NCBI GenBank assembly: GCA_025174535.1
Contig: JALBUN010000001.1
Location: 1,054,001-1,118,000, forward strand
Length of the DNA stretch: 64,000 nt
Reading direction: 5' to 3'
DNA from: Cantharellus purpuraceus
Lineage: Eukaryota > Basidiomycota > Agaricomycetes > Cantharellales > Hydnaceae
Positions 22,888 through 49,300 of the stretch are shown piece after piece. The first letter of the stretch is position 1; the number at the start of each line of letters is the position of its first letter. The notes below the pieces were generated by a model that had not been told where the DNA came from, did no database searches, and was given only the letters and a program-made list of their open reading frames with translations. The position numbers were made by a program, and so were the translations under genes.

Positions 22888-24079
22888 ATGTCTTCCAAAA
22901 CCAAGTACCTTAGTGTCCAAATCAAAAAACTCGCTGTTGATGGCGCAAACTGGCTCTCTTGGAAGAGCCGGATGTTGACAATTCTGGAGTCGAGCTATTT
23001 GTCGAAGCATGTTCAGGGGACAGCTCGTGTCCCTGCGACCCCTAAGGTTCCACCAAAGGATCAAACACTGGATGAGGACGAGCTCAAAGCTTTGGATAAG
23101 CAAGAGCAACATTTTGAGAAGTATCATGCATGCGAGAGCCTTGACGCTTGTTCGGAATCATGTCAGTATACAATATTCTGATGTATATGAGATATACATC
23201 AGAATTTCAATGATACATAAAGCCAGGGAGTTACAATTTGGATATCTTAAAAGATTTCGGATGTGTGAAATTTTCATAAATATAAACATATATTCTATAT
23301 TTTAATAAACTTTAAAAGATGAGATATTTGGTTGAGATGAACATAATCATTTACATGGATATAATGGGAATGTATGTATTAATATAATTGGTATTATATA
23401 GGGTATTTAGATATACAAATACCAGGTGGGGATTAAAGATAGTTCAAATTATGTTATAAGTATTGTATAAGAAAGAATCAATGATATTTGGATGTTCCCT
23501 CAAGAGAGTTGCCACCACTAAATGGGGAAAAAACAATTATTTTTGAGAATTATGCCAAAATATCAAAATATGTTTTAATCTAGTATATTGTGTAAAATTT
23601 GAGAATCATGTTGAAATATGAAAATAAGTTTGAATTGAAGTGTATTGTGTAAAATTTGAGGAAAATAGGTTGTATATATGTATTTGTTGTATTTCTGAAC
23701 AAGCGACCTTGCTAAGGCTCAAATTTTCAATTCCATCTCCAACGAGCTGCTCCTCAAAGTCAAGGATTTGCAGTCTGCGAAGGAGGTTTGGGATGCTGTG
23801 TGTAATGAGTTTGAGGGCCAGCGGGAGATTATCCAAATTGACCTTTGCCGCTGAATGCACACCTCCAAGTGTGAGGACGGTGCAAACATTCAAAAACACC
23901 TTGCTGAACTTCTCTCAATGCATGAGAGGCTAGCTGGTATGGGTGTTGCGATGCCTGCCAACGAGTTCTTTGGTATCATCCTTACATCACTTCCAAAGGA
24001 TTTCTGGCCATTTGTGAACTCAATTAAAACTGCTGTCTCCATTGCGGGGAAGCATCCAGATCCATGAGACCTTATCAAG
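22888..24079 (+). pseudogene. Copia gag, N-terminal part, interrupted
   Basis: Begins MSSKTKYLSVQIKKLAVDGA and has the copia-type gag pattern NWLSWKSRMLTILES, later SISNELLLKVKDLQSAKEVW and LLSMHERLAGMGV. The 565-bp element sits between Leu and Ala codons at 23142/23711. There is a frame problem near 23850 and a TGA at 24065-24067. The coding sequence resumes after the gypsy insertion at 39803. Confidence 0.8.
23143..23707 (-). mobile_element. Solo 565-bp terminal-repeat element, copy 1
   Basis: Same sequence family as the terminal repeats of the two large elements, in the orientation of the 41702 copy. It starts GACGCTTGTTC and ends GAACAAGCGAC (one base off the usual GCGTC). The 3-bp duplication CTT (23140-23142 and 23708-23710) flanks it. 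Removing it restores the copia gag codons, so the borders are firm. It carries several private substitutions and so is older than the large copies. No coding capacity. Confidence 0.92.
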
Positions 24080-24664: not shown

Positions 24665-27520
24665 GTATATTTGAACTGCCATACTCACTCCTACCAATGC
24701 CACGATCCACCACCAATTCCGAACGTGCACGAACTGTCGAGGTGCCCGCCCCCAGCATCGACACCATCCCCAAGGTCGTCGAAGAACCGACAGACCACAT
24801 AGAGGCTGTCAATGAAGAAGACGACACCCCACCCTCTCCAAATCTGGTGCAAGCCATCTCCCTGCTCGCTAGCAGCATCCATAACCCACAAGCCCCTAAG
24901 TCCCGGACCAAGGTCTGAGAACCCGACCCATTCGATGGCTCCGATCCGCGCAAGCTCCAGCCGTTCTTGGTGCAATGCCGGTTGAATTTCCACGACCGCC
25001 CCAACGTTCACATCCGATCGGGTGAAGGTCACCTTCGCCATGTCCTATCTCAAGGGCACTGCACTGGGCTACTTTGAGCCAGCGCTCATGGACGACTCTG
25101 ATGACCCGATATGGTCAGAGGACTACTCCGACTTCATCTCCGAACTTCGGACCAATTTTGGTCCTTACAACCCTGAGGCTGATGCCGAGAACGAACTCGA
25201 TTGACTTTGGAAAATCACAAAATTGCAAAATACATTGTGAGTTTCCAGCAGCTAGCCCCAAAAGTCCAATGGGGTGACACCGCACTCTGACGCCAATTTT
25301 ATGTTGGACTCCCATCCTGCATCAAGGACGAGATATCACGCGTCGGTAAACCAGATACTTTGGTTAACCTCCGCAAGCTTGCCCAATCCATCGACGCCCG
25401 TTATTGGGAATGACAATCCGAGGTCTCCCGTGAAAATTCGGCCAACAACAAATCGGACAAATCATCGGACAAGACCCCAAAGTCCAAGAAGGGGTCCAAT
25501 AAGCGGGCCACCGCCAACTCAGGCCAGAAGTGAAACACTGGTAATGCTGCCGCTTCTGGTTCCAGACAGAACAATTCCGGCACCAGCAATAACTCCAGAG
25601 CTTGCAAGAGTACTCTGGACCTCTCCACCAAGCTGGGGAAGGATGGAAAACTCACCCAGCAGGAACATCAGCGCCACATGGACAACAACCTCTGTCTGTT
25701 CTGCAGAAAGCCTGGTCACCAAGCCAAGGATTGCAACAAGGCAACCTCGTCTGCAGCAAAGGCAAAGGGCCGCGCCGCCAACGCCACGACGGACAAGTCC
25801 GATGCTAAAGCGATGGACCAAAAAAAGGCCTATAGCCTCCGTATGGGCTGAGGGCTGTGTTGGTACTCCCTGTACGACAAACAAGGTCCGCCTGAACGCA
25901 TCTGCTCTTTCCCACTCCGACTCCCTTACCCTCCTCATCTACTCCAACTCCATTCCCGATACTGCTATTCAAGCATTAATTGACTCCGGTTCTACTCACT
26001 GTTTCCTCAATTCCTCTTTTTCCCATTTACATAAACTCCATACATACACCATAACTCCAATACCACTCCGATTATTTGATGGCACTACTAATGCTGTTAT
26101 TTCACGAGCTATAGATCTGTCTATCCGTTTTTCTGTCGGAGAAATCCAGAACCTTACATTCTATGTTACTCCGCTTGACTCCAGCTGTTCTGTGGTTCTC
26201 GGACATAACTGGCTCACCTGCTACAATCCATTGATTGACTGGGCATTGGGCCATATCACATTCCGCTCTCCAGCACAGGCTGTGTCATCCCCAACGTCAC
26301 CAGCAACTATAGGTGCGAAATTATCTTCCGCCTCCGCTGACTCCGCTCTGATAGATACTCTGTCTACCCCTCCGTTTATATTGATGGTGGACGCTATGGT
26401 CTTCGCCAGACTAAGCAAACTGGATGGTTCTCACACATTCCAGGTCCACCTCTCCGATCCGATATTCCTCGCCGCTCGTTCTGCCCGATCAACTCCACCG
26501 GACCTCTCTATGGTTCCCAAGGAGTATCATGAGTTCGCCGATGTGTTCAGCAAGTCTAAAGCCAACTCCCTAGCGGAACACCGACCATATGATCTCAAGA
26601 TTGAACTGGATGACAACTCCACCCCTCCGCTTGACCCTATCTACTTGCTATCACAAAAAGAGCTACTGGCTCTCCGAACATTCATAGACGAGAACTTGGC
26701 CATGGGCTTCATCCACCCATCCCTATCTCCTCATGGAGCTCCAGTCCTATTTGTCCACAAAAAAGACGGATCACTCCGTCTATGCGTTGACTTCCGTGGA
26801 CTCAACAAGATCACCAAGAAAGACCGATACCCAATACCCCGCACCGCGGACCTACTCGAGAGTCCTCGAAAGGCTAAGATCTATTCCAAAATAGATCTCT
26901 GGCATGCCTACCACCTAGTCCGCATCCAAGACGGCGACGAATGGAAAACGACCTTCTGCACATTATATGGATCCTTCGAGTGGTGCGTCATGCCCTTCAG
27001 ACTAACCAATGCTCCGGCCGCCTTCCAGAGGTTCAGGAATGATACCTTCGCCGACCTCCTCGACGTAACTGTCCTCGTTTACTTAGACAACATTTTGGTA
27101 TATTTGGACAATGAAGAAGAACATCAGACACATGTCCGAGAGGTACTCCGACGTCTCCGAAAACATGGCCTCTTCGCCCGCGCTGACAAATGTGAATTCC
27201 ACTCCGACTCAGTTGAATACCTAGGCTATATCCTCTCCCCGGCAGGATTGACAATGTCCAATGACAAAATCAAAGCCATACAGGAATGGCCAGAACCCCG
27301 GAAAGTTAAGGACGTACAGTCCTTCCTTGGGTTCACCAACTTCTACCACCGCTTTATTCATGGCTACTCCGATATCACCGTTCCGCTCACCTGACTCACT
27401 AGGAAGGGTATCCAATGGAATTTCACTGACGAATGTAGACAGAGCTTTGAGACCTTCAAAAAGGCCTTTACTTCTGCTCCAATACTGACTCATTGGGTTC
27501 CAGACATTCCTATCCTATTA

Positions 27521-28085
27521 GACGCTTGTTCAGAAATACAACAAATACGTATATACAACCTATTTTCCTCAAATTTTATACAATACACTTCAATTCAAAC
27601 TTATTTTCATATTTCAACATGATTCTCAAATTTTACACAATATACTAGATTAAAACATATTGTGATATTTTGGCATAATTCTCAAAAATAATTCTTTTTT
27701 CCCCATTTAGTGGTGGCAACTCTCTTGAAGGAACATCCAAATATCATTGATTCTTTCTTATACAATACTTATAACATAATTTGAACTATCTTTAATCCCC
27801 ACCTGGTATTTGTATATCTAAATACCCTATATAATACCAATTATATTAATACATACATTCCTATTATATCCATGTAAATAATTATGTTCATCTCAACCAA
27901 ATGTCTTATCTTTAAAAGTTTATTAAAATATAGAATATATGTTTATATTTATGAAAATTTCACACATCCGAAATCTTTTAAGATATCCAAATTGTAACTC
28001 CCTGGCTTTATGTATCATTGAAATTCTGATGTATATCTCATATACATCAGAATATTGTATACTGACATGATTCCGAACAAGCGTC
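27521..28085 (+). repeat. 565-bp direct terminal repeat (left, copy 1)
   Basis: Runs GACGCTTGTTC to GAACAAGCGTC, so each repeat has its own inverted ends. A perfect 14-bp-arm hairpin (ATTCTGATGTATAT, 3-nt loop) lies at 28023-28053, about 32 bp from the inner end. AT-rich and non-coding. Confidence 0.95.
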
Positions 28086-28164
28086 TAGGGAGGTCATTTT
28101 AAAAACAAAAATCATCACCTTATATCATCAACAAGCTTCTTTCTCCATAGATTTAGACATGCCA

Positions 28165-28662
28165 TTATGAATTCTTATCTTCATTGGTATGTCTGGACAC
28201 TGTCCAACACAGCAAAGCCAATAGTATACCAATACTAGTTATGTAGATCATGTGCACTGTACGGCCAAGATATAGTTTCTGCCTATTTATATCTGGGCCT
28301 GGCTGTCTAACAAACGCCTGATTCACATGTGTGGTTATAATGTGTGCATATCCAGAGGTTGGATCAGAACCACTTACAAATCTGTTGGTTTTATTCAGAA
28401 AACCTGCAAATTCTGCTACAAAAATAGGATCACTTTCATTATAGCCTATTTTATCAGGTTGTAGACCAAGAAATACATATTTGATATGAGGATACTTTGA
28501 AAGCTGGAACACTTCACCTTCAGCATATGAACGGTCCAGATACTGCCCAAAGGGGTACCAGTCACACGTTGTACAATTAGCTAGCCGGTGTGGATTGCTG
28601 TGAAAAGGCTTTTGGTAAAACTGTTGATTGAGACGCTGTTTCAGTAATGGATCAGTCTCCAT
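28165..28662 (-). CDS. Predicted tail-anchored membrane protein (copy 1)
   Basis: 165 aa starting METDPLLKQRLNQQFYQKPF. A Cys-containing segment (ANCTTCDWYPFGQYLD) and a mixed alpha/beta body are followed by one hydrophobic span near the C-terminus (MIYITSIGILLALLCWTV) and a short polar tail. There is no signal peptide, so a C-tail anchor in the ER or nuclear envelope is the simplest prediction. The reading is intact in both copies of the element, which argues for selection. It lies downstream of the transposase, on the same strand. No family recognised. Confidence 0.7.
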   Translation of the reverse strand: METDPLLKQRLNQQFYQKPFHSNPHRLANCTTCDWYPFGQYLDRSYAEGEVFQLSKYPHIKYVFLGLQPDKIGYNESDPIFVAEFAGFLNKTNRFVSGSDPTSGYAHIITTHVNQAFVRQPGPDINRQKLYLGRTVHMIYITSIGILLALLCWTVSRHTNEDKNS

Positions 28663-28718
28663 AGATACCTATAAGTATAAAACATACAAATATTCAATTT
28701 TATTCTGGGAAAAAAAAT

Positions 28719-30193
28719 TTACAGTTGAATGTAGCATAGGTATACAATAATATTATTACTATTGTCTTTCCAATACTCTTTAATACATTCTGTAGATTTA
28801 AAGCTTGATGTTGCTTCCCAAGTTTTCTCTGCATAACATTTCCATTTAACTAAATATTCTACGTACTTTCCTTTTTCTTTGCCTTATTATTTGTTCTACT
28901 TCATTTTCAGTCTCATAATGCATCTCCACATCATACTCACATCTTTCTAATAGTCGTTGTTGAGATAGAGTCATCTTGTCAACATCTTCTGCTCTTTCCA
29001 GTAATGATCTGGGTGGCTCAATATCTGGGTCCTCTTCCTCAGGGTAATCAAAATATTGTTCACACCATTTTTCATGATAAGGGGATGGTTTGATCTTACG
29101 TAGTTCTACAAATTTCTTAATATTCCATAATAGACATGCTACCTTTAATTCCAGATTAAAGACAGCAGGATTTGTAGTTCTAATAGATCTCTTATTATCA
29201 AATTTTTCAAACAATATTGCAAACCCTCCAAAGAATGCTTCTACTGTTGAACGAAAGGCACCAAACTTCTTATTAAAAATCTTTTCTTCAGGTTTAAGTT
29301 CAACATTTTTGGCTTCCGAAAAGGATAAAAGAAGTTCTTAGGCTTTAATATACTTGCCTTTACTACTTCTGGAATAGCAGATGGATAAGCTCCATCAAAG
29401 CCTATCTGATCATTCTTATCTATTTTATTCCATACAGCCATCTCTACAAACATTTTTGCATCAGGATTTAGTTTACATGCCAATGAAGGTGAGGTGAATA
29501 GAACCATTTGATTAATGTCAATGCATACTTGAGTACGAAATCCTGCCTTTTTAAATTTATGTGAGTACCCCTCTTCAGATGTCGATCCAATCAAAATTCC
29601 TCTTGTATCATGACCATCAAGAAGTAATGTCACTGATTCCATTTTTGGAGGATTCTTTATAAGAGCTGATAATATCCTTATTATTATATTTGAGAACATT
29701 GTACGCAGTGAATCAGTAACTTGTTTATCTAGATCAAAGTTAAGATGATGCAGACGACCATAAAATTCCTTATGAACATCATAAAAGCTACTTGATGGCA
29801 TGAAATTTCCTATTTCTTCATAAGTAGGACCTTTGAGTAGATGATATAGTACTAACAAGCCTTTTTCTATCTCTCTATAAGGTGTAGAATGTTCTTCAAC
29901 TGAAAACAATACCACAAGAAAGAAAAATACTGGTATTGGTCCAAGCTTGTTATATACTACTTTTTTACATCATCCATGTCATTCATATCTTTTAGTTTTG
30001 TTCTATGATATTTTTTGTGTTCTAAGACAGGCCACTTTGTGTATAGAAAATTCCAATGATTGTCCATCAACTTATTATATGCTCTGTCCCTTTGATCATT
30101 CCACATTTTAAGTTGCTGAAGCTCTTTTTCTTCTTTCTCTTTTTGCTCTTTCTCTTTTTGCTCCTTTGTGTGTTTTTGCTGGTCTGAGGGCAT
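28719..30193 (-). pseudogene. DDE transposase with chromodomain, frameshifted (copy 1)
   Basis: The counterpart of 47193-48668. In addition to the two frame changes shared by both copies (A5 runs at 29306-29310 and 28872-28876), this copy lacks one A in the run after codon 77 (ending DVKK-stop near 29957). The N-terminal 78 codons are therefore separated from the DDE core. Motifs and domains are as described for copy 2. Confidence 0.85.
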
Positions 30194-30288
30194 TTTGACT
30201 AAGATACTCTTATATTACAGTAAAACAAAAATATGTTCATTTTTTGATAATTGAATTTTAAATTAAATAATATTTATTCTATGAAGCT

Positions 30289-30939
30289 ATGTTGTCTGTC
30301 TCTAAGCAAGTTGTTAGTAAAATATCTACTGTCTTTGTTAAAAAAGAACCAGAGGATGATGAAAATCCTTTGTATATAGACTCTGACACCATCTACATAA
30401 AATTCAGATTAAGAAATCCCCCAAAGGACTTCTTTCCAGCTGGATCGGTTTCTCAGGAAAGAGATAAAACACCAGAAGCACTGTACAATAAGATGATTGA
30501 AAAGGGCAATGAAATAAGTAATTCAACCTGGATTCAACAAAATCATTGTATGTCAAGTCTGCAAACCATGCAACAGGATAATCTGCCTAGTTGTAATATT
30601 TCTATTGCTAGAGAAACTGGCAAGAAGTGTGATATTTCTATTGCTGGGGAAACTTGTAAGAACTGTGATGTGTATAACAATTTGGTTACATCAATGGTTG
30701 TTGCATTGAAACAACAGCAGAGAGTTTTCAAGAAAAGTAAAATCACAATCTATGGTATGATCATAACTAAGGATGGTAGGTTAAAATTATATGAAACCAC
30801 CAATAACAATCAGGGTGTTTCAATTGTTGTATATCCTTCCTCTGGATACAGCATAGAAGCTCAGTTTGAAGAGTGTTCTAATGCTATTGACATTATATTC
30901 CAAAGTATAAGAAATCAGATGTTCAAAGAATCCTCATAA
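30289..30939 (+). CDS. Divergent 216-aa protein of the large element (copy 1)
   Basis: Starts MLSVSKQVVSKISTVFVKKE and is transcribed away from the transposase across a 95-bp spacer, so the two probably share a bidirectional promoter. It contains an acidic segment (EPEDDENP), a duplicated Cys/Ser motif (CNISIARETGKKCDISIAGE) and a globular-looking C-terminal half (YGMIITKDGRLKLYETTNN). No family recognised. PIF/Harbinger elements often carry a second, DNA-binding protein gene; whether this fills that role is unknown. Intact in both copies with only a few substitutions. Confidence 0.7.
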   Translation: MLSVSKQVVSKISTVFVKKEPEDDENPLYIDSDTIYIKFRLRNPPKDFFPAGSVSQERDKTPEALYNKMIEKGNEISNSTWIQQNHCMSSLQTMQQDNLPSCNISIARETGKKCDISIAGETCKNCDVYNNLVTSMVVALKQQQRVFKKSKITIYGMIITKDGRLKLYETTNNNQGVSIVVYPSSGYSIEAQFEECSNAIDIIFQSIRNQMFKESS

Positions 30940-30957
30940 GGAGTTGATTTAAAAGTC

Positions 30958-31182
30958 CTAGTTTCTACACTCACAACATTTTTCATCTATTTTCACTTGG
31001 ATAATTTCAAGATTTGAACTTTTGTTCACACAACAATAAGTACCATTAGTATCATGATGAGTGTTTTTTGAATGTTCAGAGCTCTTAGGACATTTAATAT
31101 CCTTACAATCTGTAACTACAGATGTAGTGGTTATATGATTGCACTTCCAAGTAATTTGAATTTTTTCACTATCACCACACAT
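30958..31182 (-). CDS. Cys-rich small protein (74 aa, copy 1)
   Basis: MCGDSEKIQITWKCNH...KCCECRN, with nine cysteines including CCV and CCEC. A small metal-binding or disulfide protein is possible. The other copy has lost one A in the run after GTG and is frameshifted. Convergent with, and 18 bp from, the 216-aa gene. Confidence 0.5.
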   Translation of the reverse strand: MCGDSEKIQITWKCNHITTTSVVTDCKDIKCPKSSEHSKNTHHDTNGTYCCVNKSSNLEIIQVKIDEKCCECRN

Positions 31183-31233
31183 GCCTTCATTTGAGTGAAT
31201 AAAAATATTGCATATTCACTTATCTGATTTATC

Positions 31234-31413
31234 TTATACTTGTTGTAGTGCACATAGTGGTAGCTGAATCTCATTGTCATCATAAGTAACAGTTATTAGC
31301 AAAGTGTCATCTGACAAAGTGCCAGTTACTAATGTAACAATACCTGTCACTGTCATTTGTGTTCTTGCATTGATAAATGATACCTTATCACCAATCTCGG
31401 GTATATTCAACAT
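31234..31413 (-). CDS. Small ORF, 59 aa (copy 1)
   Basis: MLNIPEIGDKVSFINARTQM...; alternating Val/Thr strands suggest a small beta-barrel (SH3- or OB-like). Conserved in copy 2 (45973-46152). Confidence 0.45.
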   Translation of the reverse strand: MLNIPEIGDKVSFINARTQMTVTGIVTLVTGTLSDDTLLITVTYDDNEIQLPLCALQQV

Positions 31414-31451
31414 GGTGTCTCTGGTTATTATATATTAATTTTCAAAACTCA

Positions 31452-31697
31452 TTATTTCTCATCTAATTTCCTATCAAGTATATCTACAAACTTCTTAAAT
31501 GCTTCAAAACACTGTAGAACATTCTTTCTACTATTAATATGTTTCATACCTGTTACTGTTACAGGGAAACAACACCTTACATTTGTTATCACTTCTGAAA
31601 ACAACCCTTCTGTGATAGCATGATCAAGCTCTCTTGTAACAGTTACTAGGTAAAACTGGGGGACTTTTCTCGATGTTTGAATGCAAGGTATTGTCAT
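31452..31697 (-). CDS. Small ORF, 81 aa (copy 1)
   Basis: Starts MTIPCIQTSRKVPQFYLVTV and ends FVDILDRKLDEK. ATG start; conserved in copy 2 (45689-45934). No family recognised. Confidence 0.5.
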   Translation of the reverse strand: MTIPCIQTSRKVPQFYLVTVTRELDHAITEGLFSEVITNVRCCFPVTVTGMKHINSRKNVLQCFEAFKKFVDILDRKLDEK

Positions 31698-31774
31698 TTC
31701 CTCTAAAGCACTTTTTCCCTTATTCTTCCTTATCTAAGTATGTAAAAATTTTCTTGAAGACTCCTTTAAACATT

Positions 31775-31942
31775 TCACATCATCTTTTTGTAATCAAAAC
31801 TGAGGATCTCATCATCAGTATCTAAAGTAATATCTCTAAAATCTGTCTCAAAAAACTGTTTAGTCCATTGTGTGTCAACCATTATACCATAATCCCAAAG
31901 ATCATGAGAACTCCAATCATTGCACTTCTTATCTTTACCCAT
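31775..31942 (-). CDS. Small acidic ORF, 55 aa (copy 1)
   Basis: MGKDKKCNDWSSHDLWDYGI..., rich in Asp and Trp. Its stop overlaps the region of a 17-codon ORF (MFKGVFKKIFTYLDKEE) that follows. The arrangement is the same in copy 2. Confidence 0.4.
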   Translation of the reverse strand: MGKDKKCNDWSSHDLWDYGIMVDTQWTKQFFETDFRDITLDTDDEILSFDYKKMM

Positions 31943-32265
31943 GATGTCAATAAAGAAGGATATATAAAATTTATTTACTAGATATGTGCATAGTTCTGAA
32001 GAGCAGAATGTCCATATTTTTATCTAATATTTATAAATTGAATTATATATATTTTCTAAAGTTGTCAATAGCCAGATGCATGCACTCGTTCTGAATACTA
32101 CAACAAAGTCCCATACAGAATTCCCTGTCCTTTCATCTATCATTCTTCTACCAGTTCCTTGTTTCCTATCTTGCCAGTCTTTCATTCCAAATTCTTTGCT
32201 GCATAGCTAAATAGGTGTACCAGCCGATTGGATATTATCATATCATGGTAATGACGTCGGATGGA

Positions 32266-33092
32266 AGGTCACCTTGTCAGGAGCAGTTTGATCACATTAT
32301 CAAAGGACAGCCTTTTGGCTGTGAGGGTTGATAATGATGCACTTACTGAGCAGACAGTAGGTGAGACTTTGCAGCGGCATGGTGTACCAGATAATTGAAT
32401 CGTTGTCCTTGAGCAGCCCGATGATGTCACTCGGTGTCGGTTCGCTTATGGAATAGATCCTATAAGCCTGCGTGCAATGGTCCTAGCAAGCAGACGGTGT
32501 GTAACGCAGTTGTTCAGCACTCCAAAGATCAATCAGGGCGAGGGGTACGTAACAGGGAAGTGGGATAGTGCTCTGTGGTTGGATGAGGATGGGAGCAAAA
32601 GGTCGGTCCCGATGGCTGATCGTGCTCTATGACTGGATGACAATGCGGAGCCCGGTTGGAAGGTACGCGAAAGCTGGTTTCAGGAGAAGCAACCTCTCGG
32701 TGGCGGAGGGAAATCTGATCGTTGAACCAAGGTGTTTTACCTCAGTGTAGAGATGATGGATTGTGATGTAGAGTGTAGACTTAGAGCGTTGGCTGAAAAC
32801 TTGTTTTTTGATTCCAAAGGCAAAAACTAGCGCCCTTTTATATACAAATTCCCAGGGCACAACGACACAATATGAGGAGCAAATGATGCAAGAAATGCTG
32901 ATCAAGCCAGCTGATGAAGCGTGTGAAGTTGAGCTACTAAAGGGGAAATCATGGAGAAATGAAACGACAGATAGGGACATCATTAGACTGCTCATGGACA
33001 GCCATTCACTCCAAGGTGACCTTGTATCCTACGTCTTTGGAGGCTTACATTACTGGGTTCTCCCTCTACATCTTTTTCTTGAACTAGGAATT
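32266..33092 (+). pseudogene. Decayed ORF in a GC-richer module (copy 1)
   Basis: This stretch is visibly less AT-rich than the rest of the element. On the plus strand one frame stays open for about 180 codons apart from a few TGA codons, with protein-like text such as VDNDALTEQTVGETLQRHG and CRFAYGIDPISLRAMVLASR. A second frame (32808-33092) reads ALLYTNSQGTTTQYEEQMMQ... and overlaps the end of the coiled-coil gene on the other strand. The same layout occurs in copy 2. It may be a captured and decaying gene. No family recognised. Confidence 0.3.
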
Positions 33093-34158
33093 TGAGATTG
33101 ATCAGAGTCTGAATCAGATTGATCAGAGTCTGAATCAGATTGATCAGAGTCTGAATCAGATCGTTCCTTAGACCTTTTTTCTTGATGCCTTGAACTAGGA
33201 GTTTGAGATCGTTCATTAGACCTTTTTTCTTGATGCCTTAAACCTTGAGTCATTCCTTGCTTCCATGTTTGAAAATTAATCCTATTACCATCTACGTCAT
33301 ATGATGACATTTCATTCTTTCTAGTATATATTGTAGATAGTTTTCTAGGCTCACCATTTATGAATAATTCCATTCTATTTAGTCTACAAGACTGATCTGA
33401 GTCTATAAGTATATAGTCTACACCTCTTTTCACTATCTTAAATGTCACCTTTCTGGTACCATTTTCCTGTAACCTTGTTACCTCCTGTTCTTGTTTTCCA
33501 GCCCAGTGATTCATATCAAATTTCCAGTCAACAATCTCAGATATTATTGCTTTATATTTATCACCCTGTTTCTGAAGTTTATTAATGTCTGTTCCAAGTT
33601 CCACTACAGTATCATCTGTTTCTACAATCCACTCATGCACTTCAGATTTCCATTCCACAATGTCTGATATTGTTGCAATACATCTATTAACCTGTTTCTG
33701 AAGTTTATGAATATCTGTTCTATAGTCCAATATAAGATTCTCTGCATTATGTGTATTGACCTGTTGATGAATATCTGTTCCATGGTCTGATATTGTGGCA
33801 ACACACCTATTAACCTGTCTCTGAAGTTTATGAATATCTGTTCCAAATCCTGATACAATATCATTCATTTCACTCATCCATTCATCTAAATTCTCTTTCC
33901 TGTCTGTCAAAGTAGTTATAATTGTATTTTTTCCTCAACCTGTTTCTTAAGCACCTGAATTTCCTGACTCTGGGAATTAACCTGTTGTTCAAGCATAGTG
34001 ATCTGCCTATCCTTTTCACTCATCCAAGACTTGACATTTATAAGATCAGATATTAATTCATCTTTTACTTCCATTTGACTTGCCATAGCTTTTATCAGTG
34101 CATCATTGTCACTTATCCAGCCTTTGATTGCTTTTATATCTTCAAAGATTTGTGGCAT
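33050..34158 (-). pseudogene. Coiled-coil protein with SDSDSDQ array, frameshifted (copy 1)
   Basis: The counterpart of 42807-44336. One A is missing from the run after VEEK (near 33925-33935), splitting the frame into 82 and about 286 codons. Only three SDSDSDQ units (33095-33157) against 23 in copy 2. Confidence 0.85.
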
Positions 34159-34697
34159 TTTCAAATCCCTCTCTGCTTATAAAACAGAAATGAAAAAACA
34201 TAATAATCATTTTTTCTGAACATTTGATATTTTGTATAGGCAGTAGATATATACATCTTGCTTTCTTAATAAAATGATTATTATGTTTTTATGTTATAAG
34301 CATTATGAAGATGCTCTCTTTTATGCTTCAATGCAAGATAGAGTTTGATAGAAGAGTTAATGATTGGTATATATCTCGGATAGGATCCCTCCATGATTTG
34401 TTTCTGAGGTAAGTTCCTTTATAAATATCAAGGTTCCAATCACTGACTTTATACAGATGTACTGATGGCACACTTCTGGAACAGAAATTAACAGAGTTAT
34501 ATACTAGTATGGAGCAGGATCATTATTTTCCACCACTTTGGATGGAAAATCTGATGGTATTGCACCCTAAAGTACGAGGGATAGTCATACAGTCTCATGT
34601 TAGAACAAGATTATCTACCACTATGCCCTAACTAAGTTACTTTGTTTTAAAAATAGCTTCACTGCATTAAAGGTGTTTGTTTCCAAGACTTTCCTAA

Positions 34698-35262
34698 GAC
34701 GCTTGTTCAGAAATACAACAAATACGTATATACAACCTATTTTCCTCAAATTTTATACAATACACTTCAATTCAAACTTATTTTCATATTTCAACATGAT
34801 TCTCAAATTTTACACAATATACTAGATTAAAACATATTGTGATATTTTGGCATAATTCTCAAAAATAATTCTTTTTTCCCCATTTAGTGGTGGCAACTCT
34901 CTTGAAGGAACATCCAAATATCATTGATTCTTTCTTATACAATACTTATAACATAATTTGAACTATCTTTAATCCCCACCTGGTATTTGTATATCTAAAT
35001 ACCCTATATAATACCAATTATATTAATACATACATTCCTATTATATCCATGTAAATAATTATGTTCATCTCAACCAAATGTCTTATCTTTAAAAGTTTAT
35101 TAAAATATAGAATATATGTTTATATTTATGAAAATTTCACACATCCGAAATCTTTTAAGATATCCAAATTGTAACTCCCTGGCTTTATGTATCATTGAAA
35201 TTCTGATGTATATCTCATATACATCAGAATATTGTATACTGACATGATTCCGAACAAGCGTC
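34698..35262 (+). repeat. 565-bp direct terminal repeat (right, copy 1)
   Basis: Same orientation as the left repeat and no difference noticed. Flanked internally by ...TTTCCTAA and externally by the TTA duplication. Confidence 0.95.
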
Positions 35263-37382
35263 TTAGAGACTGACACCTCTGACTATGCACTTGCCACAAT
35301 CCTGTCCATCATCTCTCTGGACGATGGACAAGTCCATCTGATCGCTTTTCACTCGCGTACATTTACGCCCCCCGAACTGAACTATGACATCCATGACAAA
35401 GAGCTCCTTGCCATATATGAAGCCTTCTGGATATGGAGACACTACCTCAAAGGTCCCTCCGATCTGGTGGACGTCATAACCAACCACAAGAACTTGGAAT
35501 ACTTCTCCACAACAAAACTACTCACCCGGAGACAAGTCCGATGGTCCGAGTACCTATCTCAGTTCAATCTCATTATCCGTTTCCGTCCTGGTCAACTCGG
35601 AGCAAAGCCCGACGCTTTAACTAGACGATGGGACGTCTACCCTAAAGAGGGGAATAGCGACTATGCCACTGTAAACCCACACAACTTTTGTCCTGTGTTT
35701 ACTAACGAGCAGCTGGCATCGTCCCTACGAGCATCCACCCTCATGACTCCCACCCTCCGAGCTGTCACCATTATGGACATCAACCAACTCTGCTCTGACA
35801 TCCGCTCATCACTCCGATCCGATCCTGTTGCAGTTAAACACTTGGACAACCCTTCCGATCCGAAATGGTCACTTGACCCCGAAGGACACCTCTGACACAA
35901 CAACCGGATATACGTCCCCAACACCAACGGCCTCCGACTCCAAGTTTTGCAGTATTATCATGATCACCCAATCTTGGGCCATTTTGGGCAAAATCACACA
36001 CAAGGATTAATCCAATGAGACTATGTATGGCCAAAAATGTGAGAATACATTCAACACTACTGTAACTCCTGCACCACATGTATGCGCTCAAAATCGCAAA
36101 GGCACAAACCCTATGGAACGCTTAAGCAACTTCCGGTCCCGGAGCAACCATGAAACTCCATCTCCATGGATTTCATAGAGAAGCTCCCCCCATCGCTTGG
36201 ATATGATACCATACTCGTGATTGTCGACAGGTTCACCAAACAGTCACTATTCATTCCGATGCATGACACCATCACCTCCGCCTCGCTAGCTAAATTGTTC
36301 GTTCTCCACGTATTCTCTAAACACGGAGTCCCATCGCATGTCACATCTGATTGGGGCTCGGAGTTCGTGTCCTCCTTCTTCCGCACATTAGGAAAGGCTC
36401 TCAACATGAAGCTTCATTTCACCTCCAGATACCACCCTGAAGGAGATGGACAAACAGAACAAATGAATCAGTCCCTGGAACAATACCTCTGAATCTATTG
36501 TAACTATCAACAAGACAACTGGGCTGATCTACTTCCAATAGCAGAGTTTGCCTACAACAATGCTCCGAACGCGACTACTGGTGTCTCTCCGTTCTTTGCT
36601 AATAAAGGCTATCATCTGAACATCTCCCTCCACCCTGAGAAAGAACTTGCCTCCACCAAAGCCCACCAATTTGTAACCGACCTCGATCAACTACACCAAC
36701 ATCTCCGAGAAACCATCTCCGATGCCCAGAAACAATATCAAGTCTCTGCAGACCAACGCTGCATTCCGGCTCTGGACCTGCAAATCAGAGACAAAGTATT
36801 CGTTAAGGCCAAACACTTCCGGACCACCCGTCCATTGAAGAAGCTCTCTGAGAAATACTTAGGTCCTTATGAGGTCATTGCTTGCGCAGGCAGCAGGTCC
36901 TTCACCCTCCACCTCCCAGACCACTTCCGAGCAGTTCATCCGGTTTTCCATATATCAATGCTCGAACCTGCTACTACGAATGAGATCTCCATGCAACCCC
37001 CACCTCCCCCGATCATCATTGAAGGAGACAATGAACATGAGATCTCTGAGATCCTGGACTCGAAGATCAACCGTCGATACAAGTGCAAGCTCCAGTACTT
37101 AGTCAAATGGGCTGGATACAAAGGCACCGATGAAGAATCCTCATGGATCTCTGCATCTGAACTCAATCATGCATCCGAATCCATCTCCGACTTTCACTCC
37201 GCTTATCCAGACAAACCTGGCCCCCTTATGAATCTTTAAGTTCAATTACTAATGCTAAGTCTATTATTTCGCATCATCATTTTATTACAAGTCAAGGGAA
37301 ATTACATGCCTGCCCAAAAAGCTCCAAAGGAATCACTCCGCCTCATTTTTCTCTGCTCCAAAATTTATAATCATTTTCATTT

Positions 37383-41701: not shown

Positions 41702-42266
41702 GACGCTTGTTCGGAATCATGTCAGTATACAATATTCTGATGTATATGAGATATACATCAGAATTTCAATGATACATAAAGCCAGGGAGTTACAATTTGG
41801 ATATCTTAAAAGATTTCGGATGTGTGAAATTTTCATAAATATAAACATATATTCTATATTTTAATAAACTTTAAAAGATAAGACATTTGGTTGAGATGAA
41901 CATAATTATTTACATGGATATAATAGGAATGTATATATGAATATAATTGGTATTATATAGGGTATTTAGATATACAAATACCAGGTGGGGATTAAAGATA
42001 GTTCAAATTATGTTATAAGTATTGTATAAGAAAGAATCAATGATATTTGGATGTTCCTTCAAGAGAGTTGCCACCACTAAATGGGGAAAAAAGAATTATT
42101 TTTGAGAATTATGCCAAAATATCACAATATGTTTTAATCTAGTATATTGTGTAAAATTTGAGAATCATGTTGAAATATGAAAATAAGTTTGAATTGAAGT
42201 GTATTGTATAAAATTTGAGGAAAATAGGTTGTATATACGTATTTGTTGTATTTCTGAACAAGCGTC
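41702..42266 (-). repeat. 565-bp terminal repeat (left, copy 2), diverged
   Basis: GACGCTTGTTC...GAACAAGCGTC. It carries private substitutions relative to the other large-element repeats. The hairpin is at 41734-41764. Confidence 0.93.
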
Positions 42267-42806
42267 TTAGGAAAGTCTTGGAAACAAACACCTTTAATGC
42301 AGTGAAGCTATTTTTAAAACAAAGTAACTTAGTTAGGGCATAGTGGTAGATAATCTTGTTCTAACATGAGACTGTATGACTATCCCTCGTACTTTAGGGT
42401 GCAATACCATCAGATTTTCCATCCAAAGTGGTGGAAAATAATGATCCTGCTCCATACTAGTATATAACTCTGTTAATTTCTGTTCCAGAAGTGTGCCATC
42501 AGTACATCTGTATAAAGTCAGTGATTGGAACCTTGATATTTATAAAGGAACTTACCTCAGAAACAAATCATGGAGGGATCCTATCCGAGATATATACCAA
42601 TCATTAACTCTTCTATCAAACTCTATCTTGCATTGAAGCATAAAAGAGAGCATCTTCATAATGCTTATAACATAAAAACATAATAATCATTTTATTAAGA
42701 AAGCAAGATGTATATATCTACTGCCTATACAAAATATCAAATGTTCAGAAAAAAATGATTATTATGTTTTTTCATTTCTGTTTTATAAGCAGAGAGGGAT
42801 TTGAAA

Positions 42807-44336
42807 ATGTCACAAATCTTTGAAGATATAAAAGCAATCAAAGGCTGGATAAGTGACAATGATGCACTGATAAAAGCTATGGCAAGTCAAATGGAAGTAA
42901 AAGATGAATTAATATCTGATCTTATAAATGTCAAGTCTTGGATGAGTGAAAAGGATAGGCAGATCACTATACTTGAACAACAGGTTAATTCCCAGAGTCA
43001 GGAAATTCAGGTGCTTAAGAAACAGGTTGAGGAAAAAAATACAATTATAACTACTTTGACAGACAGGAAAGAGAATTTAGATGAATGGATGAGTGAAATG
43101 AATGATATTGTATCAGGATTTGGAACAGATATTCATAAACTTCAGAGACAGGTTAATAGGTGTGTTGCCACAATATCAGACCATGGAACAGATATTCATC
43201 AACAGGTCAATACACATAATGCAGAGAATCTTATATTGGACCATAGAACAGATATTCATAAACTTCAGAAACAGGTTAATAGATGTATTGCAACAATATC
43301 AGACATTGTGGAATGGAAATCTGAAGTGCATGAGTGGATTGTAGAAACAGATGATACTGTAGTGGAACTTGGAACAGACATTAATAAACTTCAGAAACAG
43401 GGTGATAAATATAAAGCAATAATATCTGAGATTGTTGACTGGAAATTTGATATGAATCACTGGGCTGGAAAACAAGAACAGGAGGTAACAAGGTTACAGG
43501 AAAATGGTACCAGAAAGGTGACATTTAAGATAGTGAAAAGAGGTGTAGATTATATACTTATAGACTCAGATCAGTCTTGTAGACTAAATAGAATGGAATT
43601 ATTCATAAATGGTGAGCCTAGAAAACTATCTACAATATATACTAGAAAGAATGAAATGTCATCATATGACGTAGATGGTAATAGGATTAATTTTCAAACA
43701 TGGAAGCAAGGAATGACTCAAGGTTCAAGGCATCAAGAAAAAAGGTCTAAGGAACGATCTCAAACTCCTAGTTCAAGGCATCAAGAAAAAAGGTCTAAGG
43801 AACGATCTGATTCAGACTCTGATCAATCTGATTCAGACTCTGATCAATCTGATTCAGACTCTGATCAATCTGATTCAGACTCTGATCAATCTGATTCAGA
43901 CTCTGATCAATCTGATTCAGACTCTGATCAATCTGATTCAGACTCTGATCAATCTGATTCAGACTCTGATCAATCTGATTCAGACTCTGATCAATCTGAT
44001 TCAGACTCTGATCAATCTGATTCAGACTCTGATCAATCTGATTCAGACTCTGATCAATCTGATTCAGACTCTGATCAATCTGATTCAGACTCTGATCAAT
44101 CTGATTCAGACTCTGATCAATCTGATTCAGACTCTGATCAATCTGATTCAGACTCTGATCAATCTGATTCAGACTCTGATCAATCTGATTCAGACTCTGA
44201 TCAATCTGATTCAGACTCTGATCAATCTGATTCAGACTCTGATCAATCTGATTCAGACTCTGATCAATCTGATTCAGACTCTGATCAATCTCAAATTCCT
44301 AGTTCAAGAAAAAGATGTAGAGGGAGAACCCAGTAA
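42807..44336 (+). CDS. Coiled-coil protein with a 23-unit SDSDSDQ array (copy 2)
   Basis: 509 aa from the ATG at 42807 (MSQIFEDIKAIKGWISDNDA). The first 240 residues are repeated heptad-like blocks (ILEQQVNSQSQEIQVLKKQV, DIHKLQRQVNRCVATISD, DIHKLQKQVNRCIATISDIV) and should form a long coiled coil. Next comes a small beta-rich segment (KVTFKIVKRGVDYILIDSDQ), a basic linker (SSRHQEKRSKERS, occurring twice), the perfect heptapeptide array and a basic tail (SRKRCRGRTQ). The array is rich in acidic residues and potential CK2 sites. A structural or oligomerising partner of the transposase is one guess. No family recognised. Intact here, frameshifted in copy 1. Confidence 0.75.
   Translation: MSQIFEDIKAIKGWISDNDALIKAMASQMEVKDELISDLINVKSWMSEKDRQITILEQQVNSQSQEIQVLKKQVEEKNTIITTLTDRKENLDEWMSEMNDIVSGFGTDIHKLQRQVNRCVATISDHGTDIHQQVNTHNAENLILDHRTDIHKLQKQVNRCIATISDIVEWKSEVHEWIVETDDTVVELGTDINKLQKQGDKYKAIISEIVDWKFDMNHWAGKQEQEVTRLQENGTRKVTFKIVKRGVDYILIDSDQSCRLNRMELFINGEPRKLSTIYTRKNEMSSYDVDGNRINFQTWKQGMTQGSRHQEKRSKERSQTPSSRHQEKRSKERSDSDSDQSDSDSDQSDSDSDQSDSDSDQSDSDSDQSDSDSDQSDSDSDQSDSDSDQSDSDSDQSDSDSDQSDSDSDQSDSDSDQSDSDSDQSDSDSDQSDSDSDQSDSDSDQSDSDSDQSDSDSDQSDSDSDQSDSDSDQSDSDSDQSDSDSDQSDSDSDQSQIPSSRKRCRGRTQ
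43809..44291 (+). repeat. 21-bp coding minisatellite, 23 units
   Basis: GATTCAGACTCTGATCAATCT repeated 23 times without any variation I could see (483 bp). The counterpart in copy 1 has 3 units. Confidence 0.95.
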
Positions 44337-44339
44337 TGT

Positions 44340-45180
44340 AAGCCTCCAAAGACGTAGGATACAAGGTCACCTTGGAGTGAATGGCTGTCCATGAGCAGTC
44401 TAATGATGTCCCTATCTGTCGTTTCATTTCTCCATGATTTCCCCTTTAGTAGCTCAACTTCACACACTTCGTCAGCTGGCTTGATCAGCATTTCTTGCAT
44501 CATTTGCTCCTCATATTGTGTCGTTGTGCCCTGGGAATTTGTATATAAAAGGGCGCTAGTTTTTGCCTTTGGAATCAAAAAACAAGTTTTCAGCCAACGC
44601 TCTAAGTCTACACTCTACATCACAATCCATCATCTCTACACTGAGGTAAAACACCTTGGTTCAACAATCAGATTTCCCTCCGCCACCGAGAGGTTGCTTC
44701 TCCTGAAACCAGCTTTCGCGTACCTTCCAACCAGGCTCCGCATTGTCATCCAGTCACAGAGCATGATCAGCCATCAGGACCAACCTTTTGCTCCCATCCC
44801 CATCCAACCACAGAGCACTATAACACTTCCCTGTTACGTACCCCTCGCCCTGATTGATCTTTGGAGTGCTGAACAACTGCGTTACACACCGTCTGCTTGC
44901 TAGGACCATTGCACGCAGGCTTATAGGATCTATTCCATAAGCGAACCGACACCGAGTGACATCATCGGGCTGCTCAAGGACAACGATTCAATTATCTGGT
45001 ACACCATGCCGCTGCAAAGTCTCACCTACTGTCTGCTCAGTAAGTGCATCATTATCAACCCTCACAGCCAAAAGGCTGTCCTTTGATAATGTGATCAAAC
45101 TGCTCCTGACAAGGTGACCTTCCATCCGACGTCATTACCATGATATGATAATATCCAATCGGCTGGTACACCTATTTAGC
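44340..45180 (-). pseudogene. Decayed ORF in a GC-richer module (copy 2)
   Basis: Same module as 32266-33092, on the opposite strand here. A protein-like frame is interrupted by TGA codons, and a shorter ORF (44294-44578 region) overlaps the coiled-coil gene end. A TATAAAAG sequence near 44540 on the plus strand suggests a promoter in the module. Function unknown. Confidence 0.3.
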
Positions 45181-45443
45181 TATGCAGCAAAGAATTTGGA
45201 ATGAAAGACTGGCAAGATAGGAAACAAGGAACTGGTAGAAGAATGATAGATGAAAGGACAGGGAATTCTGTATGGGACTTTGTTGTAGTATTCAGAACGA
45301 GTGCATGCATCTGGCTATTGACAACTTTAGAAAATATATATAATTCAATTTATAAATATTAGATAAAAATATGGACATTCTGCTCTTCAGAACTATGCAC
45401 ATATCTAGTAAATAAATTTTATATATCCTTCTTTATTGACATC

Positions 45444-45611
45444 ATGGGTAAAGATAAGAAGTGCAATGATTGGAGTTCTCATGATCTTTGGGATTATGGT
45501 ATAATGGTTGACACACAATGGACTAAACAGTTTTTTGAGACAGATTTTAGAGATATTACTTTAGATACTGATGATGAGATCCTCAGTTTTGATTACAAAA
45601 AGATGATGTGA
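45444..45611 (+). CDS. Small acidic ORF, 55 aa (copy 2)
   Basis: MGKDKKCNDWSSHDLWDYGI...DYKKMM, the same product as 31775-31942. It is followed two bases later by a 17-codon ORF (45613-45666, MFKGVFKKIFTYLDKEE). Both are short enough to be missed by gene finders. Confidence 0.4.
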   Translation: MGKDKKCNDWSSHDLWDYGIMVDTQWTKQFFETDFRDITLDTDDEILSFDYKKMM

Positions 45612-45688
45612 AATGTTTAAAGGAGTCTTCAAGAAAATTTTTACATACTTAGATAAGGAAGAATAAGGGAAAAAGTGCTTTAGAGGAA

Positions 45689-45934
45689 ATGACAATACCT
45701 TGCATTCAAACATCGAGAAAAGTCCCCCAGTTTTACCTAGTAACTGTTACAAGAGAGCTTGATCATGCTATCACAGAAGGGTTGTTTTCAGAAGTGATAA
45801 CAAATGTAAGGTGTTGTTTCCCTGTAACAGTAACAGGTATGAAACATATTAATAGTAGAAAGAATGTTCTACAGTGTTTTGAAGCATTTAAGAAGTTTGT
45901 AGATATACTTGATAGGAAATTAGATGAGAAATAA
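45689..45934 (+). CDS. Small ORF, 81 aa (copy 2)
   Basis: Identical in translation to the copy-1 ORF at 31452-31697. Third in a run of closely spaced same-strand small ORFs (45444-46152). Confidence 0.5.
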   Translation: MTIPCIQTSRKVPQFYLVTVTRELDHAITEGLFSEVITNVRCCFPVTVTGMKHINSRKNVLQCFEAFKKFVDILDRKLDEK

Positions 45935-45972
45935 TGAGTTTTGAAAATTAATATATAATAACCAGAGACACC

Positions 45973-46152
45973 ATGTTGAATATACCCGAGATTGGTGATA
46001 AGGTATCATTTATCAATGCAAGAACACAAATGACAGTGACAGGTATTGTTACATTAGTAACTGGCACTTTGTCAGATGACACTTTGCTAATAACTGTTAC
46101 TTATGATGACAATGAGATTCAGCTACCACTATGTGCACTACAACAAGTATAA
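45973..46152 (+). CDS. Small ORF, 59 aa (copy 2)
   Basis: MLNIPEIGDKVSFINARTQM...; the same as 31234-31413. Thr/Val-rich strands suggest a small beta fold. Confidence 0.45.
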   Translation: MLNIPEIGDKVSFINARTQMTVTGIVTLVTGTLSDDTLLITVTYDDNEIQLPLCALQQV

Positions 46153-46203
46153 GATAAATCAGATAAGTGAATATGCAATATTTTTATTCACTCAAATGAA
46201 GGC

Positions 46204-46427
46204 ATGTGTGGTGATAGTGAAAAATTCAAATTACTTGGAAGTGCAATCATATAACCACTACATCTGTAGTTACAGATTGTAAGGATATTAAATGTCCTAA
46301 GAGCTCTGAACATTCAAAAAACACTCATCATGATACTAATGGTACTTATTGTTGTGTGAACAAAAGTTCAAATCTTGAAATTATCCAAGTGAAAATAGAT
46401 GAAAAATGTTGTGAGTGTAGAAACTAG
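46204..46427 (+). pseudogene. Cys-rich small ORF, frameshifted (copy 2)
   Basis: The counterpart of 30958-31182. One A has been lost after MCGDSE, which breaks the frame; the rest of the cysteine pattern is still readable. Confidence 0.5.
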
Positions 46428-46445
46428 GACTTTTAAATCAACTCC

Positions 46446-47096
46446 TTATGAGGATTCTTTGAACATCTGATTTCTTATACTTTGGAATATAATGTCAATA
46501 GCATTAGAACACTCTTCAAACTGAGCTTCTATGCTGTATCCAGAGGAAGGATATACAACAATTGAAACACCCTGATTGTTATTGGTGGTTTCATATAATT
46601 TTAACCTACCATCCTTAGTTATGATCATACCATAGATTGTGATTTTACTTTTCTTGAAAACTCTCTGCTGTTGTTTCAATGCAACAACCATTGATGTAAC
46701 CAAATTGTTATACACATCACAGTTCTTACAAGTTTCCCCAGCAATAGAAATATCACACTTCTTGCCAGTTTCTCTAGCAATAGAAATATTACAACTAGGC
46801 AGATTATCCTGTTGCATGGTTTGCAGACTTGACATACAATGATTTTGTTGAATCCAGGTTGAATTACTTATTTCATTGCCCTTTTCAATCATCTTATTGT
46901 ACAGTGCTTCTGGTGTTTTATCTCTTTCCTGAGAAACCGATCCAGCTGGAAAGAAGTCCTTTGGGGGATTTCTTAATCTGAATTTTATGTAGATGGTGTC
47001 AGAGTCTATATACAAAGGATTTTCATCATCCTCTGGTTCTTTTTTAACAAAGACAGTAGATATTTTATGAACAACTTGCTTAGAGACAGACAACAT
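46446..47096 (-). CDS. Divergent 216-aa protein of the large element (copy 2)
   Basis: As 30289-30939, with very few substitutions (for example VVHKI for VVSKI). It diverges from the transposase across 96 bp of AT-rich spacer. Confidence 0.7.
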   Translation of the reverse strand: MLSVSKQVVHKISTVFVKKEPEDDENPLYIDSDTIYIKFRLRNPPKDFFPAGSVSQERDKTPEALYNKMIEKGNEISNSTWIQQNHCMSSLQTMQQDNLPSCNISIARETGKKCDISIAGETCKNCDVYNNLVTSMVVALKQQQRVFKKSKITIYGMIITKDGRLKLYETTNNNQGVSIVVYPSSGYSIEAQFEECSNAIDIIFQSIRNQMFKESS

Positions 47097-47192
47097 AGCT
47101 TCATAGAATAAATATTATTTAATTTAAAATTCAATTATCAAAAAAATGAACATATTTTTGTTTTACTGTAATATAAGAGTATCTTAGTCAAA
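47097..47192. promoter_or_regulatory. Probable bidirectional promoter of the large element
   Basis: A 96-bp, very AT-rich spacer between divergent start codons (216-aa gene and transposase), present identically placed in both copies (30194-30288 in copy 1). Confidence 0.4.
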
Positions 47193-48668: not shown

Positions 48669-48723
48669 ATTTTTTTCCCAGAATAAAATTGAATATTTGT
48701 ATGTTTTATACTTATAGGTATCT

Positions 48724-49221
48724 ATGGAGACTGATCCATTACTGAAACAGCGTCTCAATCAACAGTTTTACCAAAAGCCTTTTCACAGCAATCCACACCG
48801 GCTAGCTAATTGTACAACGTGTGACTGGTACCCCTTTGGGCAGTATCTGGACCGTTCATATGCTGAAGGTGAAGTGTTCCAGCTTTCAAAGTATCCTCAT
48901 ATCAAATATGTATTTCTTGGTCTACAACCTGATAAAATAGGCTATAATGAAAGTGATCCTATTTTTGTAGCAGAATTTGCAGGTTTTCTGAATAAAACCA
49001 ACAGATTTGTAAGTGGTTCTGATCCAACCTCTGGATATGCACACATTATAACCACACATGTGAATCAGGCGTTTGTTAGACAGCCAGGCCCAGATATAAA
49101 TAGGCAGAAACTATATCTTGGCCGTACAGTGCACATGATCTACATAACTAGTATTGGTATACTATTGGCTTTGCTGTGTTGGACAGTGTCCAGACATACC
49201 AATGAAGATAAGAATTCATAA
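48724..49221 (+). CDS. Predicted tail-anchored membrane protein (copy 2)
   Basis: Same 165-aa product as 28165-28662, intact, 55 bp downstream of the transposase region on the same strand. One C-terminal hydrophobic span and a ten-residue polar tail. Confidence 0.7.
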   Translation: METDPLLKQRLNQQFYQKPFHSNPHRLANCTTCDWYPFGQYLDRSYAEGEVFQLSKYPHIKYVFLGLQPDKIGYNESDPIFVAEFAGFLNKTNRFVSGSDPTSGYAHIITTHVNQAFVRQPGPDINRQKLYLGRTVHMIYITSIGILLALLCWTVSRHTNEDKNS

Positions 49222-49300
49222 TGGCATGTCTAAATCTATGGAGAAAGAAGCTTGTTGATGATATAAGGTGATGATTTTTGTTTTTAAAATGACCTCCCTA

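Follow-up and report, generated by a model that had tools for sequence, protein, structure and literature searches.

A DNA transposon resembling long terminal repeat (LTR) elements in Cantharellus purpuraceus, whose two terminal direct repeats behave almost as one locus and are probably copied from one

We analysed a 64,000-nucleotide stretch of the genome of the basidiomycete Cantharellus purpuraceus (contig JALBUN010000001.1, positions 1,054,001 to 1,118,000, here also C1:1054001-1118000; hereafter, the window), which belongs to an assembly of 40.15 Mb in 50 contigs. At positions 27521–35262, the window contains a complete mobile unit consisting of two long terminal direct repeats (LTDRs) and the interior between them (INT), enclosed in a TTA duplication. 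The left LTDR (27521–28085, + strand) is 565 bp in length, with a GC content of 26% and 11-bp inverted ends, and contains a near-palindrome of 31 nt at 28023–28053. The right LTDR (34698–35262, + strand) has the same sequence, with 0 differences over the 566 bases compared, and each LTDR starts with GACGCTTGTTC and ends with GAACAAGCGTC; the pair of alike 565-bp direct repeats with inverted ends described in an earlier, sequence-only reading of this locus was thus borne out. The INT (28086–34697, + strand; 6,612 bp) starts with TAGGGAGG and ends with TTTCCTAA. The two copies of the TTA target-site duplication were read from the flanks (27518–27520 and 35263–35265). The DNA around the unit, labelled gypsy pol in the sequence-only reading, has a relative elsewhere in the window (57056–57115, − strand) in which the target site is uninterrupted, with a single TTA. 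An Rfam scan of the unit returned nothing at gathering thresholds.

The INT carries a DDE_Tnp_4-type transposase gene on the − strand (28846–30193), which is interrupted in this copy. The frame is open in four of 24 copies, with 451–456 codons from stop to stop. A piece of the window copy matched DDE_Tnp_4 with an E-value of 0.041, and the open copy L025 matched it at 6.5e-5 and 23 bits, just under the Pfam cut-off of 24.8; the domain was matched by 12 of the 13 aligned family members (best, 1.2e-15). Judged from these matches, the predicted protein has the transposase of the PHIS superfamily (PIF/Harbinger-ISL2EU-Spy), so the DDE_4-type transposase of the sequence-only reading stands as a family assignment, although not as an intact frame in the window copy. 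Eighty relatives of the transposase were found, with a best identity of 53%; 71 of them contained DDE_Tnp_4 and 53 a chromodomain (counted by eye), and those named came from Apophysomyces, Rhizomucor, Mortierella, Actinomortierella, Circinella, and Thamnidium. Residues D193, D267, and E319 of the L025 protein were invariant in the alignment and are candidates for the catalytic residues, a role that we presume from the transposase family. The transposase frame ends before the chromodomain seen in most relatives, and the length of the stretch is the same in all 24 copies. By eye, a chromodomain-like tail follows the transposase stop in another frame (28700–28870, − strand). Among the 60 chains of solved structures listed, matches were confined to the chromodomain part of the alignment, and no viral contig with a related transposase was confirmed.

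The other open reading frames (ORFs) of the INT are a 167-codon ORF with no Pfam family and one remote relative, P0081 (28165–28668, − strand), a 222-codon ORF on the strand opposite to the transposase, with no relatives found and no Pfam family above the cut-off (30271–30939, + strand), and coiled-coil ORFs with a repeat tract of variable length, also with no Pfam family above the cut-off (33050–34176, − strand). The tract in the coiled-coil gene is built of 21-bp units and was seen at 33095–33166 and again at about 43847–44249 of the window. INT length ranges between 6,056 and 7,129 bp in the 24 copies, partly via this tract. Relatives of one INT segment (32429–33019) occur as separate fragments near other LTDRs (in the flanks of L007, L015, and L021), and the segment is largely absent from L017, L018, L022, and L028. 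No Pfam match to a reverse transcriptase was obtained in the ORFs scanned, as the sequence-only reading had stated for the interior. There was likewise no match to a Myb/SANT domain in these ORFs, which were read without splicing, or to a His-Me finger nuclease, diverged forms of which could escape such a scan.

In the genome as a whole, the 20-base LTDR end had 637 matches with ≤2 mismatches, covering at least two LTDR subfamilies, compared with 0 for the reversed control. When the unit ends are subtracted from this count, an estimated 500 or so LTDRs are solo copies. INT left ends were located at 58 places and INT right ends at 60, and exact searches for the LTDR junctions on the left and right INT sides returned 58 and 61 places, respectively. 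Comparing the lists by eye, 57 of the 58 left ends and 59 of the 60 right ends were also listed as LTDR junctions; the remaining right end (L029) is followed by an LTDR after altered bases, and the remaining left end belongs to a diverged copy on C23. A genome search for INT–INT junctions with exact 12-base arms and a gap of ≤20 found none. Because the INT ends adjoin LTDRs and no INT–INT junction was found, there is no sign of LTDR excision. Arrays are also present, such as one on C45 that contains two INTs and three LTDRs within one outer TTA/TTA pair, and whose three LTDRs differ pairwise at 2 places. At C1:2360412-2372856, the INT ends lie 12.4 kb apart in one unit with matched TAT flanks. 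At L044 (the same place as L008), an LTDR is nested in another LTDR near position 307–310, with matched 3-bp flanks.

Both LTDRs were fetched for 35 units (2 in the window and 23 + 10 elsewhere), which were chosen by contig, not by outcome; the sample excludes units on C17–C44 and some others, and L029, which belongs to an array containing a nested solo, was left out of the unit count. The 3-bp outer flanks were identical in 29 of the 35 units, whereas shuffling the right flanks 10,000 times gave 7.4 such units on average and 17 at most. The triplets of the matched units were AT-rich (TTA, 9; TAA, 9; TAT, 4; ATA, 2; TTT, 2; and AAA, TGA, and TCG, 1 each). TWA duplications thus accounted for 18 of the 29, and neither ANT (Pangu) nor CWG (NuwaI) duplications occurred in any of the 29. 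Among the solo LTDRs of the main subfamily, 15 of 18 had matched flanks, and solo duplications also included AAG, ATG, ATC, TCT, and CAA. The 3-bp TTA duplication that the sequence-only reading had noted therefore holds for the window unit, with its TTA/TTA flanks and empty site, but the family is not limited to TTA. The inner flanks were constant in the fetched units, with TAG after the left LTDR and CCTAA before the right LTDR. The abundance of LTDRs might suggest that two solo copies happened to flank a stretch of DNA, but the INT recurs about 60 times with the LTDRs adjoining at the same base, and with 29 of 35 units bearing matched outer flanks, such a chance arrangement is already refuted and has next to no probability left. 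Travel of the INT with both LTDRs and matched 3-bp duplications, by which the sequence-only reading had proposed to tell a mobile unit from a coincidence, was what we observed.

The six units with unmatched flanks (W2, L010, L019, L028, C9a, and C15d) each had at least four differences between the left and right LTDRs, whereas 22 of the 29 matched units had two or fewer (Fisher p = 0.001), as expected if the unmatched units are recombinants between units. Across the sample, the median number of LTDR differences was 1 within a unit and 13 between units. The LTDR variants consist of shared blocks in new combinations, and the four-gamete test indicated at least eight recombination events. The left and right LTDRs, which lie more than 6 kb apart, were tightly linked. 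Their same-site r2 was 0.976 in the 20 units with an INT and matched flanks, a set that drops four units with unmatched flanks, and 0.933 in all 29 matched units; it was 0.890 in the 24 units with an INT when none was dropped and 0.864 in all 35. Within an LTDR, r2 was 0.39 at <20 bp, 0.08 at 120–250 bp, 0.16 at 250–400 bp, and 0.04 beyond, and left–right linkage was nearly equal to the linkage within an LTDR at an equal distance. In contrast, the r2 between LTDRs and INT was 0.057–0.074 in five INT blocks, against a permuted background of 0.053 (20 shuffles, with the INT sites thinned to one third and the LTDR sites to one half).

The pairwise distances point to different histories of INT and LTDR. 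INT distances were calculated from the 5,982 of 7,518 columns with ≤5% gaps, which mostly excludes the length-variable middle, and the pairwise divergence was 0.47% for the INT (24 units) versus 2.25% for the LTDRs. The Mantel correlation was 0.82 between left and right LTDRs, 0.15 between the INT and the left LTDR (p = 0.13), and 0.06 between the INT and the right LTDR (p = 0.33). In two picked pairs, for which the p-values are uncorrected for the choice, nearly identical INTs stood between distinct LTDRs: L021 and L030 differed at 5 of 5,964 INT sites, yet at 8 of 565 LTDR places on both sides (p = 2.6e-6), and L011 and L016 differed at 8 of 5,982 INT sites and 18 of 565 LTDR places (p = 4e-14). 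Conversely, the left LTDRs of L015 and L017 were identical, with 37 INT differences. Pointing the other way, L011 and L033 have in common both a rare LTDR type and closely similar INTs (9 differences in 5,982), as though the unit had moved in one piece. The linkage values indicate that recombination parting the LTDR from the INT keeps both LTDRs together, so that they behave almost as one locus. Either one LTDR is present at the recombining stage, or the two are made alike afterwards.

The main rival to be weighed against these values is a composite that moves by cut-and-paste, in which the outer LTDR ends are used, the whole unit jumps, and gene conversion keeps the LTDRs alike. The outer ends do carry 11-bp inverted ends and matched duplications, block differences occur between the LTDRs of some matched units (C14a and C15c), and rapid conversion would be compatible with the linkage values alone; cut-and-paste is also the mode of PHIS transposons, according to a background statement made for Spy in PMC4482050. 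However, a simple composite of this kind does not yield left–right linkage with a free INT, and conversion would have to wipe out nearly every left–right difference after each INT reassortment. Rapid conversion should also spread or erase new mutations, whereas 17 of the 20 unit-specific substitutions in matched units (unit-specific within the sample of 90 LTDRs compared) were one-sided, and only three were on both sides. The 32 left-only substitutions of C15d, one of the unmatched units, are probably a misalignment. The one-sidedness of the substitutions suggests that LTDR identity dates from birth and not from continual conversion, and there was no sign of LTDR loss beside the INT. We therefore regard the cut-and-paste composite as unlikely. 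The phrase "two short elements flanking cargo" in the sequence-only reading understates a unit whose LTDRs act almost as one locus, which is not explained by simple composite cut-and-paste. Left–right linkage with the INT nearly unlinked, together with the one-sided mutations, indicates that both LTDRs are probably copied from one at each birth.

A resident LTDR would also be duplicated by homing, in which the INT enters resident solo LTDRs via recombination and gap repair. Several observations are consistent with this: there is almost no linkage between LTDR and INT types, the INT is less diverse than the LTDRs, and units carry the LTDR types of solos (the LTDRs of L022 and solo L043 are identical, and two other places lie about 1 base from the L030 LTDR). 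The identical LTDR pair of L016 has its nearest copy about 5 differences away among 40 scored places (from bit scores), as would be expected of an aged resident, and the integration of circles into solos is among the options named by the authors of the KolobokP report (Kojima and Bao 2022, PMC9587614). If aged residents were duplicated, however, their mutations would be expected on both sides, and there were three such substitutions in the 35 units compared with 40 in 20 single LTDRs (the latter include L029t and L005t, LTDRs inside arrays that are outside the 18 true solos). Nine of these 20 single LTDRs had no substitutions of their own, so young solos could serve. A simple crossover would produce complementary mosaics, not identical LTDRs, and homing is further weakened by the finding that the LTDR variants are shuffled shared blocks with only three two-sided unit-specific substitutions; it appears improbable.

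We lean, by a small degree, towards replicative insertion of a circle, in the manner of an IS6/Tn3-like cointegrate, with later recombination leaving a solo. In this scheme, the LTDR would be what the transposase recognises, and the element would travel as a molecule, most likely circular, that contains a single LTDR and a single INT. The transposase would nick the LTDR ends and join them to a staggered 3-bp cut, and replication through the LTDR would then integrate the entire circle into the chromosome, with a newly made, identical LTDR on either side (a cointegrate). The triplets TAA and TAG at the inner flanks may represent a duplication, since decayed, that arose when an ancestral LTDR inserted in the donor. 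Homologous recombination between paired LTDRs would later free the circle and leave a solo LTDR with its duplication, and such resolution would explain why solos far outnumber units. With the LTDR as the end element and the INT as the rest of the circle, one would expect from this scheme that the LTDRs are identical and directly oriented, that 3-bp duplications lie outside them and constant flanks inside, and that arrays and many solos occur. The larger claim, that a eukaryotic DDE transposon here runs through a complete bacterial-style replicative cycle from circle to cointegrate to solo plus circle, with the circle going on, is tentative, and we place it somewhat below an even chance.

Several points weigh against replicative copying from a single LTDR. 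The reassortment of LTDR and INT is not total: the INT block at columns 500–1500 stood at about twice the background (r2 with the LTDRs, 0.118 and 0.116), and the Mantel test against the left LTDR reached a nominal p of 0.04 for one of the six INT segments. The lower diversity of the INT than of the LTDRs needs recent spread or constraint on the INT besides. Seven of the 29 matched units have three or more left–right differences, and in two or three of these (C14a, C15c, and perhaps C15a) the differences lie in shared blocks, so exchange between LTDRs also occurs. INT ends trimmed by more than about 3 bases would escape the INT-end searches. We know of no eukaryotic DDE transposon shown to form cointegrates, and a literature search named none among the first 8 of 22 titles. 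Finally, a further type of LTDR, about 606 bp long and 75–78% identical to the first (L039, L041, L045, and L047), accounted for four of the 15 solo places fetched and had matched 3-bp flanks in all four; it shares the terminal 20 bases by choice, because it was picked by that pattern. Among 40 scored places, this sister subfamily showed no pair at unit spacing. LTDRs may thus also spread on their own, with the sister type moving in trans as a short element; alternatively, the sister subfamily may be the remnant of units that have already been resolved.

The window contains further copies of the family. A second unit (W2; 41702–49865, − strand) has LTDRs at 49301–49865 and 41702–42266 and an INT at 42267–49300; its flanks are unmatched and its LTDRs differ at 4 places, and it is likely a recombinant. 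One solo LTDR (23143–23707, − strand) is flanked on both sides by the same triplet (AAG when read along the element), and another (60555–61119, + strand) has TTA/TTA flanks.

Long direct terminal repeats are usually taken to indicate reverse transcription, and a unit that has them is readily classed as an LTR element. LTR retrotransposons do share with the present element direct terminal repeats that are alike within a copy and the formation of solo repeats. Identical ends, mosaics, solos, and arrays would all be LTR-retrotransposon behaviour if the element were copied through RNA by the reverse transcriptase of another element, with template switching shuffling the INT and LTDR. Unlike LTR retrotransposons, however, the element has no reverse-transcriptase domain in the ORFs scanned, its ends are GA..TC instead of TG..CA, and neither a TGG primer site beside the LTDR nor a purine tract at the inner borders was seen by eye on either strand; a search of the window for tRNAs found none. 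The 3-bp duplication and inverted ends fit the element's own DDE_Tnp_4 transposase. RNA-mediated copying thus seems about as improbable as homing. If replicative copying from one LTDR is true, an LTR-like life cycle has been reached with DNA alone.

PIF/Harbinger and other PHIS transposons, as described in PMC4482050, resemble the element in their DDE_Tnp_4-type transposase, 3-bp duplications, and short inverted ends, which start with A or G (here, G). They differ in that the present element has 565-bp direct terminal repeats and a duplication not fixed to TWA, ANT, or CWG, and the Myb/SANT partner protein of PIF/Harbinger was not found in the ORFs scanned. By its transposase the element is PHIS, and it fits none of the duplication-defined groups tested (PIF/Harbinger, Pangu, and NuwaI). 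In a literature search covering the best-matching titles, with Repbase and subscription papers outside its scope, no report was found of a PHIS/Harbinger element with long terminal direct repeats.

In the bacterial IS6/IS26 pseudo-compound transposons (PMC7986276), a segment likewise lies between end elements copied in direct orientation, with duplications on the outside, and arrays occur; one-copy circular forms have been proposed for them, and resolution is by host recombination. Their transposase is encoded in the end element, whereas here it is in the INT. In IS6 transposition, donor and target become fused, with an IS copy in direct orientation at each boundary, and the repeats flanking the donor copy and the new target duplication are each split between the two IS copies. 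Resolution of the cointegrate required recA, hence host recombination, and, according to a figure legend, leaves the target with one IS copy between the target duplications. The same source states that IS903, of the IS5 family, can use alternative pathways, and IS5-family and PHIS transposases are placed in one tree in PMC12730594.

The closest precedent is KolobokP (Kojima and Bao 2022, PMC9587614), whose terminal direct repeats are long and have inverted ends, and which also forms solos and multimers. It shares with the present element the LTDR-INT-LTDR body, solo copies, tandem multimers, duplications at the outer ends, and a transposase in the INT; its LTDRs are about 450 or 660 bp, with inverted ends of 11–18 bp. 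The body by which KolobokP is recognised, LTDRs with their own inverted ends together with solos and multimers, is thus found here, but the enzyme is different: KolobokP encodes a Kolobok transposase, accompanied in most families by a His-Me nuclease, whereas the present element has a DDE_Tnp_4/PHIS-type transposase, with no such nuclease found, and the L025 protein shows no histidine from D267 to E319 when the alignment is read by eye, so the mark of a Kolobok transposase is lacking. KolobokP is reported from animals, and loss of a single LTDR is evident in one family, whereas the present host is a fungus and LTDR loss was not seen. An LTR-mimicking, composite-like DNA transposon, as proposed in the sequence-only reading, is therefore what we found, but it is not the first with this architecture. 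What is new here is the transposase superfamily for this body, the fungal host, and the linkage test. The KolobokP authors leave circles, translocatable units, and recombination as unsettled options, and the passages found of their report contain no comparison of left and right LTDRs. The linkage test, with ends linked to each other and hardly to the middle, makes this question of circular or replicative intermediates testable in KolobokP and, more generally, offers a means of distinguishing the copying of a single repeat from the jumping of a composite. A second DDE lineage with an LTR-like body would show that this design arises repeatedly in DNA transposons and, if our reading is true, that it did so in both PHIS and Kolobok transposons.

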